Assembly: GCF_025231485.1 (NCBI RefSeq)
Contig: NZ_CP104003.1
Location: forward strand, 1,116,001-1,180,000
DNA: 64,000 nucleotides
Reading direction: 5' to 3'
Source of the DNA: Salinirubellus salinus
Lineage (GTDB): Archaea; Halobacteriota; Halobacteria; Halobacteriales; Haloarculaceae
Shown: piece after piece, positions 49,492-54,830 of the stretch
Layout of the letters: each line of letters begins with the position of its first letter
Numbering within the stretch: the first letter of the stretch is position 1
Made by a program: the position numbers and the translations under genes
The notes under the pieces: generated by a model
What the model was told of the DNA's origin: nothing
Seen by the model: only the letters and a program-made list of their open reading frames with translations
Databases searched by the model: none

Positions 49492-49504
49492 GGCGTGCGG
49501 TACT

Positions 49505-49516
49505 GTTCGGCCGAAC
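49505..49516. repeat. Perfect palindrome upstream of the UPF0058 gene
   Basis: GTTCGGCCGAAC is a perfect 12-base palindrome lying 14-25 bases before ATG 49491, close to where the transcription start of a leaderless or short-leader mRNA would be. It could be an operator. Confidence 0.5.
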
Positions 49517-49592
49517 AAAACGGTTGCGCGTGATTCGGTCGCACTCCGCGGCGGAGGGGACGGTCAGCAGGTGGTCCGCGGGTGGTCGGGAG

Positions 49593-49805
49593 TCAGAAGA
49601 CGTACTCGTCGTCGTGGCCCATCATGCCGTCGTCCTCGAAGCCCGGTTCCTCGTCCTCTATCGGGCCGCTGGTCTTGTACGCGCGGATCCCGGTCGAGAG
49701 GAGGTCCTCGATGGCCTCCTCCCGGTTGACGAACTCGCCATCCTCGACGAGTTTCGCGATCTGCATCTCGAGGTGCTCCGGGACGGTTAGCTCTACCTTG
49801 GGCAT
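49593..49805 (-). CDS. Ribbon-helix-helix (CopG-like) small protein
   Basis: The protein has 70 residues from ATG 49805. PKVELTVPEHLEMQIAKLVEDGEFVNREEAIEDLL has the strand-helix-helix pattern of CopG-type DNA-binding proteins, followed by an acidic tail. GTTAAATG, read on the minus strand, lies about 33 bases upstream. It may be a DNA-binding regulator; no toxin gene is adjacent, so an antitoxin role is not supported. Confidence 0.82.
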   Translation of the reverse strand: MPKVELTVPEHLEMQIAKLVEDGEFVNREEAIEDLLSTGIRAYKTSGPIEDEEPGFEDDGMMGHDDEYVF

Positions 49806-49982
49806 CGGAACTGGCAGAAAATTCGCCGGGGGGGCATTTAACTCTGGCGGGCGAAGTTTCGTATTCGACAATCGAACCCCGCGCTCCGAAAAACTCGACT
49901 CTCGCTCGGGAAGAATGATTTCACGTCGTCACAAACGCGGCCGAGTCGTAACACGTAGGCCCCGGCCGTCCCGATGCCGGGT

Positions 49983-50582
49983 ATGAGCGACCTGCGCGAC
50001 GTGACCGACCTCTACGAGGAGTTCGGCGACGAGCGGCTCCCACCCGGACAGACCGAGACCACGGGCTTCCCCGTGCTCTCGAAGGGGGCGACCCCGAAGT
50101 TCGACCGCGAGGACTGGACGTTCGACGTGTGGGGCGCCGTCGACGAGCGCCTCGCGCTCTCCTACGACGAGTTCCGTGACCTGCCGAGCGAGACCCAGTT
50201 ACAGGACTTCCACTGCGTGACCGGGTGGTCGCGCTTCGACAACGAGTTCACCGGCGTGACGTTCCCCACGCTGGCCGAGGTGGCGGGCGTCACCGACGAC
50301 GCCGTCCACGTCATGTTCCACTCGCTGGACGGCTACACCACCGACCTCCCGCTCGCCGCGTGCATGCGCGAGGAGACGATGCTCGCGTGGGGCCACGACG
50401 GCGAGGACCTCTCGGCCGACCACGGCGGCCCCCTCCGTGTCGTGACGCCCCACCGGTACGCCTACAAGGGGGCGAAGTGGGTGGAGGGCGTCGAGTTCCT
50501 CACCGAACCCGAGCGGGGGTACTGGGAGAAACGGGGGTACTCGGTCAGCGCGAACCCGTGGGCGGAGGAGCGCTACGCCTGA
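49983..50582 (+). CDS. Molybdopterin-oxidoreductase-fold (SUOX/YedY-like) protein
   Basis: This 199-residue protein has the oxidoreductase molybdopterin-binding domain: DWTFDVWGAVDERLALSYDEF, then the molybdenum-ligating Cys in FHCVTGWSRFDN, and the later HRYAYKGAKWVEGVEF. It is shorter than sulfite oxidase and has no heme or dimer domain, which resembles YedY. No signal peptide is seen, so it may be cytoplasmic. The substrate is unknown. Confidence 0.9.
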   Translation: MSDLRDVTDLYEEFGDERLPPGQTETTGFPVLSKGATPKFDREDWTFDVWGAVDERLALSYDEFRDLPSETQLQDFHCVTGWSRFDNEFTGVTFPTLAEVAGVTDDAVHVMFHSLDGYTTDLPLAACMREETMLAWGHDGEDLSADHGGPLRVVTPHRYAYKGAKWVEGVEFLTEPERGYWEKRGYSVSANPWAEERYA

Positions 50583-50603
50583 GTCGGACCGTCTGCCACC
50601 CGA

Positions 50604-51914
50604 TCACGGCCCGAGGTAGCCCCACGCCAGCAGGCGGTCGCCGTCGCCCTGGATCCAGCGCTCCCCGATGTCGTCACGGTAGTAGAGGTTGGGGACGACG
50701 ATGTCCTTGATGCGGCCGTAGGCCTGTCGGCGAGCGTTCTGCATCGTGTCTCCTTTCCCAGTGACGACCAGCGGCATGCCGCTCTCACCAGCAACTCGCC
50801 ACTGTCCATCGATCTTCTTCGTGTCCTCCAAGTGGATTCCGTCTCGGCTCTCGGTCTGGAAGACGACCGCGGCGTTACGGGAGTTCTCGTCGTACGTCTT
50901 CTCGTCGTCGAACGGGAAGGGTGGGAGGACAACGCGTACACCGATCTGGTACCCGTTGTGAACCTCTAATTCAGGGTCGTTTCCGTGGGCTAGGTCGTAG
51001 AAGAACTGCCCGGTCGAGGATTCGAGCGACTCCTCCTGGAGTGCGATGGTCGGATAGCCGAATCGTGGGGTGAACTCTAACGGGTAGATGCCAGTCTCGT
51101 TGACGATACAGTTGATGTCGATACTCCCGACGTAGCCCTCCTCGGCGAGCCAATCTTCGAGCTTCCCGAACGTCTCCTCGAACAGTTTGTTCCGGCCGCC
51201 CCAGAACATCGACGTACCCATTTCACCGGTTGAGGGGCCGATGTTTCCTGGGAACAATTTCTTATGCTCAAAATTAAAATTGACCTGGTCAATGAACTGC
51301 TCACCGTTGAAGAACCCGCAGATGGCGATCTCCACGCCCTCGACTTTCCGCTGGAGCTGGAAGCCCTTCATGCGGTGGCCCCACGCTTTCTTGTACGCAC
51401 GAAGGACGTCTACCACGTCGCTGCCATCGTCCTCATTTCCGACGTAGAGGAGTCGCTTGACGTTCTGAACTTCTCCAAGCGGTTTGATCACGTACGGTGC
51501 GGGATTCTCTTGGACGTGCTGGATGCCGGCGTCGAAATCCTCGAAGACGTGGTGCTCGATAGTGTTGACTCCGTGCTCTTCGAGGATCTCCATCGCATAA
51601 CCGCGATCTTCTTCGAGTTGATCAGTGTTCGGCGTGCCACCAACGACTGCTTTCCCTTGCTCGCGGAGTTCTTGGGCGAGCGCGCCAGTGCCGACGTCTG
51701 AGCCGACCCAGATGTCGTCGAAGATGATGACATCGGCCCACTCGACCTCCGCGCGCCAGTCGTCTGTCTTCGGGACGAACCCGTTGCCGATTTCTTTGTC
51801 CGATTCGGCCTCGATGTAGTACTTCACGTCGTGGCCTTCTTGATGGACTTGCCAGGCGAGGTCGGTGATCAGTGCGGCGTCGGCCGAGACGAACAGGAAG
51901 TGTTTGGTTTCCAT
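50604..51914 (-). CDS. ATP-grasp protein (PurD-like), probably of mixed origin
   Basis: The 436-residue protein is a full-length ATP-grasp enzyme of the PurD-like group: YVIKPLGEVQNVKRL, FQLQRKVEGVEIAICGFF, INCIVNETGIYPLEFTPRFG. Most of the gene is AT-richer than its surroundings, with A/T third positions in many codons, but the last 50 or so codons (50604 to about 50755) return to GC-rich local style. The upstream neighbour is a truncated paralogue. The reaction is unknown; related proteins join an amine to a carboxylate using ATP. Confidence 0.85.
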   Translation of the reverse strand: METKHFLFVSADAALITDLAWQVHQEGHDVKYYIEAESDKEIGNGFVPKTDDWRAEVEWADVIIFDDIWVGSDVGTGALAQELREQGKAVVGGTPNTDQLEEDRGYAMEILEEHGVNTIEHHVFEDFDAGIQHVQENPAPYVIKPLGEVQNVKRLLYVGNEDDGSDVVDVLRAYKKAWGHRMKGFQLQRKVEGVEIAICGFFNGEQFIDQVNFNFEHKKLFPGNIGPSTGEMGTSMFWGGRNKLFEETFGKLEDWLAEEGYVGSIDINCIVNETGIYPLEFTPRFGYPTIALQEESLESSTGQFFYDLAHGNDPELEVHNGYQIGVRVVLPPFPFDDEKTYDENSRNAAVVFQTESRDGIHLEDTKKIDGQWRVAGESGMPLVVTGKGDTMQNARRQAYGRIKDIVVPNLYYRDDIGERWIQGDGDRLLAWGYLGP

Positions 51915-51915
51915 T

Positions 51916-51984
51916 GGATTTATCTAGGCAGCGACCGTTTGTCTTTCTGTGCGAGTTTTCTGAGAGCAAATGAATGATAAATCC
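51916..51984. repeat. 9-bp inverted repeat in AT-rich junction DNA
   Basis: GGATTTATC (51916-51924) and GATAAATCC (51976-51984) are perfect inverted copies 51 bases apart. They lie in AT-rich DNA between the two ATP-grasp copies, immediately 5' of the full-length copy's start. They may be promoter elements or the ends of a small element. Confidence 0.55.
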
Positions 51985-52643
51985 CACATTTTGTGCTCGA
52001 AGTTGAAGTTGATGGGTTCGACGAACCCGTCGCCGTCGAAGAACCCACAGATGGCCACCTCGACACCCTCGACGCGGCGCTGGAGCTGGAACCCCTTCAT
52101 CCGGTGGCCCCACGCCTTCTCGTAGGCCCGGAGCACGTCGACCACGTCGCTCCCGTCGGCCTCACGCCCGACGTAGAGCAGTCGCTTGACGTTCTGCACC
52201 TCGCCCAGCGGCTTGATGACGTAGGGCGCGGGGTTCCGCTGGACGTGCTCGATGGCGTCGTCGAACGACGAGAACTCCCGGTGGGGGAGGAGTTCGACCC
52301 CGTGGTCGGCGAGAACCTCCATCGCGTACCCCCGGTCGTCCTCTAGTCGGTCCGTGTTCGGGGTGCCGCCGACGACGGCGTGCCCCTCGGCGCGGAGTCG
52401 CTGGGCGATGTCGCCGGTGCCGACGTCGTCGCCCACCCAGATGTCGTCGAAGACGACCACGTCCGCCCAGTCGAGTTCGGCCTTCCAGTCGTCGGTCTTG
52501 GGGACGAACCCGTCGGCTATCTCGCGGTCTGACTCGGCCGCGACGTAGTAACGCACGTCGTGGCCCTCGCGGTGGATCTGCCACGCGAGGTCACCGACGA
52601 GGGCCGCGTCGAGCGAACAGAAGAGGAAGTTCGCGGGTTCCAT
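51924..52643 (-). pseudogene. 5' part of a native ATP-grasp gene, truncated
   Basis: The 239-codon frame matches the adjacent full-length protein from its first residue to NFNFEHK. It is GC-rich like the rest of the window. At 51989-51990 homology stops abruptly, and the frame runs on for 21 unrelated codons (MWDLSFICSQK...) to a TAG. The C-terminal ATP-grasp half is missing, so the product is probably inactive. See the neighbouring entry for the chimera. Confidence 0.88.
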
Positions 52644-52796
52644 AGTGCCCCGTCGGCGGGCGGCCGCGTAAGTCTCCCGGCCCCGAGAGTCACCGTCGGG
52701 CCGGCCGCGGCCCCGTCGGACGAGGGAGCCGAGCCGCCCCGTGGCCGAGCTACCGCGGTCGGAGGCGCTTTAGGCCGCCCGGCCGTCGCTCCACCC

Positions 52797-53552
52797 ATGC
52801 AGGCAGCCATCGTCACCGTCGGCGACGAACTCCTCGCCGGTGACACCGAGAACACGAACGCGACGTGGCTCTGCCGTGAGCTCACGGCGCGCGGCGTGTC
52901 GGTCCAGCGCGTCCTCACGGTCCCCGACGGGGTGGACACCATCGCCGACGCCGTCCGCGAGTACGCGGCCGCCTTCGACGCCGTCCTCCTCACGGGCGGC
53001 CTCGGCGGGACGCCAGACGACGTGACGATGGACGGGGTGGCCGCGGCGTTCGACCGACCGCTCGGCGTCGACGACCTGGCGAAGGCGGACCTCGAACGCA
53101 CGCTCGCGGCCATCGCCGACGACTACCCGGACCTCTCGGTGGACGTGGAGGCCGAGGCGTCCATCCCCGAGGGTGCACGCCCGCTCGTCAACTCCGCGGG
53201 CCTCTCGCCGGGCTGCGTCGTCGAGACGGAGACGACGGCCGTCTACGTCCTCCCCGGCATCCCCGGCGAGATGCGGGCGATGTTCGAGAGCGTGGCCGAG
53301 GAGTTCGACGGCGACGTGCAGTCCCGGACCCTCTACACTGACGAACCGGAGGCCGCGCTCATCGAGCGACTGGACGACGTGCGCCACCAGTTCGGCGTGC
53401 AGGTGGGCTGTTACCCCGACCGGGCGGTCCAGCACAACCGCCTGAAACTCCGGAGCGACGACGGGGCGACGCTGGAGGAGGCGTTCGCGTGGCTCGGCGA
53501 GCACGTGCGGACAGTCGACCCCCCGACAGAGGAGGAAGGGGAGACGGGCTGA
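52797..53552 (+). CDS. MoCF-domain protein related to the N-terminal half of CinA
   Basis: The 251-residue protein has the molybdopterin-binding fold: AIVTVGDELLAGDTENTN, LLTGGLGGTPDDVTMDGVAAAF and GIPGEMRAMFESV are family signatures. It lacks the C-terminal deamidase domain of CinA, as do most archaeal versions. Its role may be in nucleotide pool repair, but is uncertain. Confidence 0.9.
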   Translation: MQAAIVTVGDELLAGDTENTNATWLCRELTARGVSVQRVLTVPDGVDTIADAVREYAAAFDAVLLTGGLGGTPDDVTMDGVAAAFDRPLGVDDLAKADLERTLAAIADDYPDLSVDVEAEASIPEGARPLVNSAGLSPGCVVETETTAVYVLPGIPGEMRAMFESVAEEFDGDVQSRTLYTDEPEAALIERLDDVRHQFGVQVGCYPDRAVQHNRLKLRSDDGATLEEAFAWLGEHVRTVDPPTEEEGETG

Positions 53553-53570
53553 GCCGTTCGGGACGGGCGG

Positions 53571-54830
53571 CTAGTTCCCGAACCGGGTGTCCGGGTCGCG
53601 CTCCGGGTCCGGGCCGTCGCGGTCCGACCCGCTCGGTCGGCCGGTGTTCGGCCGGTCCAGTGAGCCCGACGAACGGATGATGTCGAGCGCGGTCATCAGG
53701 TCGGTCCGCGAGAGGAGGCCGGTGAACGTCGCCTCGTCGGCGGGCCGGAAGGGGTCCGGGTCGCTCATCACGACGAGACGGCCCACGCCGTTGGTCTGCA
53801 TCCGCTCGATGGCCTCCATCGCCCCCGTCGATGGCGTGACGGTGACGAGGTCGGTGCTCATCACGTCGTCGACGCGGTAGGCGTCGCGTTCGACCTGTGG
53901 GACCGACTGGGCGTCCTCGAGCGTGACGAGGCCGACCACGCGACCGTTCTCCAGCACCGGGTAGCCGGTGTGGCGCTCGCGGAACATCCGCTCGACGAGG
54001 TCGGCCACGCTCGTCTCGGGCGTGACGGAGCTGACCTGCTCGGCCGGCGTCATCAGCTCCCCGACGACGACCCCGTCCAGCGCCGCGCGCATCGTCGTCT
54101 GCTGGGCCTCGGAGGAGGCACCGATGTAGATGAAGAAGGCGATGGCGACGAGGAACAGGCCGCCGCCGCCGAACAGGCCGAACAGGCCCAGCAGGATGGC
54201 GAACACCTGGCCCACCCGGGCGGCCGTCTGGGTCGCCTGCGCGTACGGTCGGGTGCGCGCGAGGAGTGCGCGGAGCACCCGTCCGCCGTCCATCGGGAAC
54301 CCCGGCAGGAGGTTGAACCCCGCCAGCGCGACGTTCATCAGCGCGAGGTAGCCGACGAGGAACTTCACCGCGGCGACGGCCGTGGCGCCGTCCGGGGGCA
54401 GGAACTGGAACCCGACCCACGCGCCGACACCGAGCAGGACGCTGACGGCGGGGCCGGCGAGCGCGACGTACAGCTCCTGCTTCCAGTCCTCGGGCATCGC
54501 CGAGAGCTGGGCGACGCCCCCGAACAGCCAGAGTCGGATGGACTCGATCTCGATGCCGTAGCGTCGCGCGACCAGCGAGTGGCCGAGTTCGTGCAGGACG
54601 ACGCCGACGAACAGGCCGACGGCGGCGAGCGTCCCCATCCCGAACGCGAGGACGGGCGTGCCCGTGAGCGCGCTCGCGGCGATGTTCGCGCCCAGCAGCT
54701 CGTTCAGTATCTCGGTCCACCGGCCGACCTGCACGCCGATGACGTAGGCGAACAGGGGGAGGACCAGCAGGAACGTCAGGTCGAGCTCGATGGGGATACC
54801 GAAGAGCCGACCGACGCGGAAACTCTTCAT
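53571..54830 (-). CDS. Site-2 protease (M50) with CBS domain pair
   Basis: This 419-residue membrane protein has about six helices, the zinc motif H80-E81-L-G-H84, and the third ligand region NLLPGFPMDGGR. A cytoplasmic CBS pair occupies about 250-390 (VGELMTPAEQVSSVTPE and VDDVMSTDLVTVTPS) and may sense adenine nucleotides. The family cleaves membrane-anchored regulators. ATG 54830 is a good start. It diverges from the metallo-hydrolase gene. Confidence 0.93.
   Translation of the reverse strand: MKSFRVGRLFGIPIELDLTFLLVLPLFAYVIGVQVGRWTEILNELLGANIAASALTGTPVLAFGMGTLAAVGLFVGVVLHELGHSLVARRYGIEIESIRLWLFGGVAQLSAMPEDWKQELYVALAGPAVSVLLGVGAWVGFQFLPPDGATAVAAVKFLVGYLALMNVALAGFNLLPGFPMDGGRVLRALLARTRPYAQATQTAARVGQVFAILLGLFGLFGGGGLFLVAIAFFIYIGASSEAQQTTMRAALDGVVVGELMTPAEQVSSVTPETSVADLVERMFRERHTGYPVLENGRVVGLVTLEDAQSVPQVERDAYRVDDVMSTDLVTVTPSTGAMEAIERMQTNGVGRLVVMSDPDPFRPADEATFTGLLSRTDLMTALDIIRSSGSLDRPNTGRPSGSDRDGPDPERDPDTRFGN

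Follow-up and report, generated by a model that had tools for sequence, protein, structure and literature searches.

A truncated and a full-length ATP-grasp gene side by side in Salinirubellus salinus, a probable deletion scar of a site-specific integrative element

The window, i.e. the whole stretch of 64,000 nucleotides analysed here (Salinirubellus salinus, contig NZ_CP104003.1, positions 1,116,001 to 1,180,000), contains a truncated copy of an ATP-grasp gene followed by a full-length copy (Table 1), which raises the question of how the gene came to be present both as a piece and as a whole. A sequence-only reading had proposed that a foreign homologue was integrated into the native gene through one non-homologous and one homologous crossover. 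The answer favoured here, with a probability of about 85%, is that the locus is the deletion scar of a site-specific integrative element.

Table 1. Features of the window locus and of the intact element locus in Halogeometricum limi
Locus	Feature	Coordinates	Strand	Remark
Window	Native ATP-grasp (PurD-like) 5′ piece (N-piece), codons 1–217	51993..52643	-	Cut at the attachment core
Window	Truncated ORF including tail	52643-51924	-	239 aa, 218 of them homologous
Window	Attachment core CGAGCAC (attL)	51993..51999	-	Core and position recur in the attL and attR of intact elements
Window	Putative element left end: integrase arm, rescue gene upstream region, in-frame tail with stop	51915..51992	-	Alignable to element left ends
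Window	Full-length ATP-grasp copy, 436 aa	50604..51914	-	Codons 1 to ~395 probably element-derived, ~396–436 probably native (break in GC3 and informative sites; Pfam)
Window	Attachment site with synonymous recoding, full copy, codons 211–222	51249..51284	-	Core TGAGCAT at 51264-51270
Window	Native 3′ end, presumably regained by homologous recombination	50604..50729	-	Closest to reference copy L045, also the closest to the truncated piece
H. limi	N-piece	459634-460260		One contig
H. limi	Full copy	458251-459558		Same contig
H. limi	C-piece	384752-385453		Same contig, about 73 kb between

A PurD-like gene in two unequal copies

The full copy in the window matches Pfam GARS_A (3.1e-11) and, weakly, GARS_C, and the closest solved structures to the protein are PurD enzymes. 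It scores 95 bits against the NCBIfam purD equivalog cut-off of 288, and by that cut-off the product is classed as a PurD-like ATP-grasp paralogue and not as PurD (GAR synthetase) itself. The gene is missing from more than half of the order sample (392 genomes) and is broken or frameshifted in several genomes (G024, G058, G004, G432 and G085), and so it is not strictly needed. Nearly all matches in phages and plasmids are below 60% identity; distant homologues with 31–34% identity were seen in phage MW202796.1 and in the Sphingomonas plasmid NZ_CP060781.1, where the homologue adjoins a gene coding for a SET-domain protein. In one further genome an insertion of ~0.7 kb (L179, G148:C1:2275609-2276301) splits the gene near codon 226, which is eight codons away from the integration site described below; as this insertion carries a transposase-like ORF and lies at codon 226, it was rejected as another case of the element.

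The genome to which the window belongs has two matches to the gene in all, both at this locus, with no third copy. The sequence-only reading of a GC-rich truncated copy and an AT-richer full-length one was borne out by the ORF coordinates, by the 74% amino acid identity over the 218 shared residues and by the GC profile, which falls from ~0.68–0.70 to 0.51–0.60 between ~52000 and ~50800 and then returns to ~0.67–0.70. Codon usage follows the same drop and return, with GC3 of 0.92 in the truncated copy, as in most neighbour genes (0.91–0.96), 0.75 in codons 1–395 of the full copy and 0.97 in codons 396–436. The return to local GC-rich style, which had been placed at ~50750, corresponds to a GC3 change point at codon 396 (~50729; permutation P = 0.005). 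The cut, placed earlier at the residues NFNFEHK (51990), does lie there, but the exact break falls after H217, in the attachment core, 3 nt before 51990. Between the H217 codon of the truncated copy and the start of the full copy there are 78 nt. No RNA families were found within 49500-53600.

The two copies have different affinities. The reference copy L045 is the closest to both the truncated piece (about 0.81–0.82) and the last 51 codons of the full copy (0.88), and codons 1–370 of the full copy are closest to L083, L024, L011 and L112. At informative sites, defined as those separating the native-like L045 from five element-like copies, the full copy shows a break at codon 396–397 in four of the five comparisons and at codon 366 in the fifth (all P ≤ 0.001). 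In the gene tree (12-row starred set) the truncated piece falls with L045 and L108 and the full copy with L083, L112, L003 and L024, which indicates that the two copies are not sisters. The full copy is thus foreign to the truncated one, as had been claimed, by its different nearest relatives, but it did not arrive, in the reading favoured here, as a lone gene in one step.

Intact elements, scars and empty sites

Genome contigs and 146 genomes of the family were scanned first, and 392 genomes of the order were searched later. The junction of the window recurs at the same base in other genera. A Natronomonas MAG has a decayed piece ending at residue 217 and then a full copy, and further loci were found in Halogeometricum limi (with the N-piece 52–54% identical), in G048 and as a remnant in Salinigranum; the search of the order added G353, G339, G225, G207 (Halorubrum cibi) and G252.

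Four of these 392 genomes, namely H. limi, G225, G252 and G207, possess an N-piece, a full copy and a C-piece which starts where the N-piece ends, 73–136+ kb apart. The distance from N-piece to C-piece is about 75 kb in G225, about 117 kb in G252 and at least 136 kb over two contigs in G207. The core CGAGCAC occupies the codons F215-E216-H217 at both attL and attR in G225, G252 and G207, and in H. limi attL reads CGAACAC and attR CGAGCAC, in the same codons. An arm such as TATTTCCGGGATCTATTATATAA stands to the right of the attL core and its near inverse to the left of the attR core, with 16/22, 16/23 and 20/23 inverted-repeat matches.

In each intact element the full-length copy, considered below as a rescue copy, is located between the element left end and the integrase gene, which is followed by the cargo; in H. 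limi and G225 the rescue and integrase genes stand tail to tail with a 4-nt overlap. The integrase has a PF00589 match (8.5e-15) and a SAM-like PF13495 domain in H. limi and a Phage_integrase domain in G225, and the same ORF is 85–87% identical in G207 and G252. An integrase with at least 85% identity occurs in exactly the four intact-element genomes, the next best match being at most 53% identical. Among the related integrases examined (35–53% identity) no consistent convergent rescue gene was found alongside, so the trait seems limited to this integrase clade. The arrangement is not that of a suicidal (SSV-type) integrase: att lies beyond the rescue gene and the integrase gene is whole. No relatives of the integrase were found in viral contigs and no close one in plasmids; carriage by a virus was rejected as neither an ATP-grasp nor an integrase relative turned up in viral contigs. 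A homing endonuclease or intein as the cutter was dropped once the integrase, attL and attR, and the C-pieces had been found.

Apart from the integrase, all four elements have in common a pair of small genes that precede it (142 and 151 aa) and one gene of 74 aa; the other genes vary. The elements of H. limi and G225 carry a complete BREX set (BrxA, BrxB, BrxC, PglX, PglZ, BrxL), a Piwi-domain Argonaute and UvrD/PD-(D/E)XK nucleases. In G225 (L170, 2377-13668) the Argonaute gene is followed by those for a PLD-like protein and UvrD/PD-(D/E)XK proteins, with 76–96% identity to H. limi. The element of G252 lacks the BREX/Argonaute/UvrD set; in its place are genes for QueC, for Dru/Dpd-like helicases and for an SbcC-like protein. 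The neighbours of QueC there (L243, 1-9413) resemble, by their first residues, QueE and a TGT-like gene, and together with QueC they suggest a 7-deazaguanine DNA modification system. A second integrase (PF00589) lies near the right end in H. limi and G225; the stretches of G252 and G207 searched did not show it, so it is not the common integrase. No transfer genes were recognised among the element proteins searched.

In five Haloferax species and in G349 a single intact ATP-grasp gene stands between the genes that flank the H. limi element (left gene 460738; right genes 383682 and 383180); in Halogranum the flanking genes seen are the left one and the first of the two on the right. Judged by these flanking genes, the relatives of H. 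limi represent the empty site of the element. The single intact copy which the sequence-only reading advised looking for in relatives is thus present between the H. limi flanks; at the window's own locus neither an empty nor a filled site was found in relatives, and the orthologues of the right flank have no ATP-grasp gene alongside. The nearest relatives of the N-pieces differ by host (H. cibi, L026, 0.91; G252, L046, 0.92; G225, L014, 0.88; window, L045, 0.81), as one would expect of an element that inserts into whichever native gene it meets.

The other loci, i.e. G353, G339, the Natronomonas MAG, G048 and the Salinigranum remnant, are scars like that of the window. No C-piece was found in G353, G339 or the Natronomonas contig, though their left part is the same as in the window. 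The window itself keeps the left junction (CGAGCAC with an alignable arm, 51915-51999) and the chimaeric 3′ end; no integrase was found in its genome at 1e-60 and no C-piece, absences that are expected of a scar and also of other histories. Its spacer resembles that of the intact elements moderately (shuffle P = 0.002 against H. limi, 0.004 against G252 and 0.09 against G225). The truncated ORF gains from the element left end an in-frame tail and stop, which reads EHHFRDLLYNSPQSVATQTEITAA in H. limi, EHYFRDLLYNSPQCTERQTAVTAA in G252 and EHKMWDLSFICSQKTRTERQTVAA in the window, each followed by the stop codon; the tail TERQTVAA of the window resembles TERQTAVTAA of G252. A likeness of this tail at the protein level was seen among H. 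limi, G225, G252 and the window. The left-arm (attL) pattern is present in 5 of the 392 genomes, these being the four with intact elements and the scar G339. The left end of the window is of a subtype common only to the scar G353, and no intact element with this subtype was found.

The recoded attachment core

In the element copies codons 212–221 read AAT TTC AAT TTT GAG CAT AAG AAA TTA TTC, as against AAC TTC AAC TTC GAG CAC AAG AAG CTG TTC in typical native genes. The core is TGAGCAT in all four element copies (H. limi, G225, H. cibi and the broken copy of G252), so that both outer bases of CGAGCAC are altered and the protein stays the same; the recoded site of the window differs from the spelling common to the element copies by two synonymous bases. 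The three whole element copies are only 82–84% identical, yet they share a 35-nt identical block at the core, the next longest being 20 nt. When the site is left out of the tree, the copies fall in three places, and the recoded spelling amounts to 11 changes over all sequences, at least six of them on well-supported branches. Presumably host and element copies have exchanged the body of the gene, and the respelled core has been retained throughout.

Engineered cleave-and-rescue gene drives break a resident gene and supply a recoded, resistant copy. The element may be a natural counterpart, breaking its target mid-gene and bringing a full copy hidden from its own integrase by silent recoding, and recoded single-copy chromosomal genes would then be host alleles that had become immune by recombining with element copies; we hold this tentatively, at slightly less than even odds. 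A drive uses a nuclease and the element uses integration, and the likeness is one of analogy only, not of kinship. The recoded spelling does occur in single-copy chromosomal genes on scattered branches. Seven single-copy genes of GC-rich genomes, mostly Halorubrum (L010, L013, L015, L017, L022, L117 and L129), have AT-ending codons in an island that coincides exactly with the attachment site and are possibly immune alleles.

The recoding could instead reflect common ancestry or the AT-rich codon use of the element and have nothing to do with immunity, an explanation that rivals this one step and not the scar reading, and that we regard as possible if rather doubtful. The element copies are AT-richer overall, and the recoded site does not stand alone in its AT-richness, 10–37 of the 424 windows per copy being as AT-rich; the block could also have been spread, without selection, by a small conversion tract. 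Against it stands the identical block lying exactly at the core of copies so divergent and so scattered on the tree. Some scars (G048, Salinigranum and Natronomonas) carry CGAGCAC, which is compatible with loss of constraint after loss of the element but does not prove it.

History of the window locus and related systems

According to the scar reading, a circular element would have integrated through its tyrosine recombinase, acting at the 7-bp core CGAGCAC in the native gene, which would be split into an N-piece and a C-piece. The left end of the element, by the integrase gene, would bring a second, full-length target gene preceded by an upstream region of its own; this copy, putatively expressed and functional, has TGAGCAT, which should block use by the integrase. 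The resulting order would be N-piece, element left end, rescue copy, integrase, cargo and C-piece. The 3′ half of the rescue copy and the native C-piece would then form direct repeats, and recombination between them at about codon 396, presumably in the lineage of the window, would delete the integrase, the cargo and the C-piece, leaving the N-piece, 78 nt of the element end and a full gene with an element body and a native 3′ end.

It is improbable, in our view, that the scar formed elsewhere and that gene transfer or conversion brought in the N-piece and the full copy as one block. G048, of the same family as the window, does have a related spacer (64% identity) with a decayed N-piece, and the flank genes of the window were not found at that locus; the N-piece of the window, however, has the GC3 of most of its neighbours and is far less decayed than that of G048. 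Very improbable is the import of a lone foreign homologue in one step, by homologous recombination in the 3′ part and, at codon 218, by illegitimate joining (homology-facilitated illegitimate recombination). The AT-richer insert with one homologous and one non-homologous junction speaks for it, and both kinds of junction are present as the sequence-only reading had it; but the non-homologous one corresponds to attL of a tyrosine-integrase element, and as four intact elements and several further scars, in several genera, have it at the same base, it is an element boundary and not the illegitimate joining of a lone gene. An old tandem duplication, one copy being truncated afterwards, might be suggested by two adjacent copies in the same direction but can be set aside, since the copies are not sisters, no other copy exists in the genome and the element boundaries contradict it. 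Relatives with the same two-copy structure, named earlier as what would refute the integration of a foreign homologue, do exist, but in other genera and through repeated targeted insertion, not through such a duplication.

The scar reading explains tandems of a half-gene and a foreign gene as footprints of lost elements, from which earlier visits by elements now gone can be counted. The intact elements show one route by which BREX, Argonaute and other defence cargo passes from one haloarchaeal genus to another. As target and self differ at the core by synonymous bases only, the system offers a clean test of avoidance by an element's own integrase.

Integration into protein genes with repair is already known. 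In genomic islands and prophages targeting dusA, the integrase uses a fixed site in a protein gene, as here, and the island replaces the lost 5′ end (PMC4482086); these islands mend the gene through a fusion, at the att site, of their own sequence with the resident gene, whereas the element described here carries a separate complete copy with a respelled core. SXT/R391 ICEs, which use prfC (PMC2654960), are likewise large, with a tyrosine integrase and a protein-gene target, but the SXT site is near the 5′ end, and here it is mid-gene and a full copy is carried. Thaumarchaeal integrated elements are also archaeal with protein-gene targets, using gene 3′ ends, including that of a phosphoribosylamine-glycine ligase gene (PMC6563490), and lose little, in contrast to the cut in the middle of the gene seen here. 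A keyword search of the open-access literature found no description of a separate full-length target copy with a respelled att core, which is weak evidence, and no matching description of BREX-bearing haloarchaeal elements or intact target copies; the full-length respelled rescue copy appears to be new. Most descriptions of elements in protein genes have them inserting at a gene end or repairing the gene through a fusion; this family cuts its target mid-gene and brings a complete replacement.
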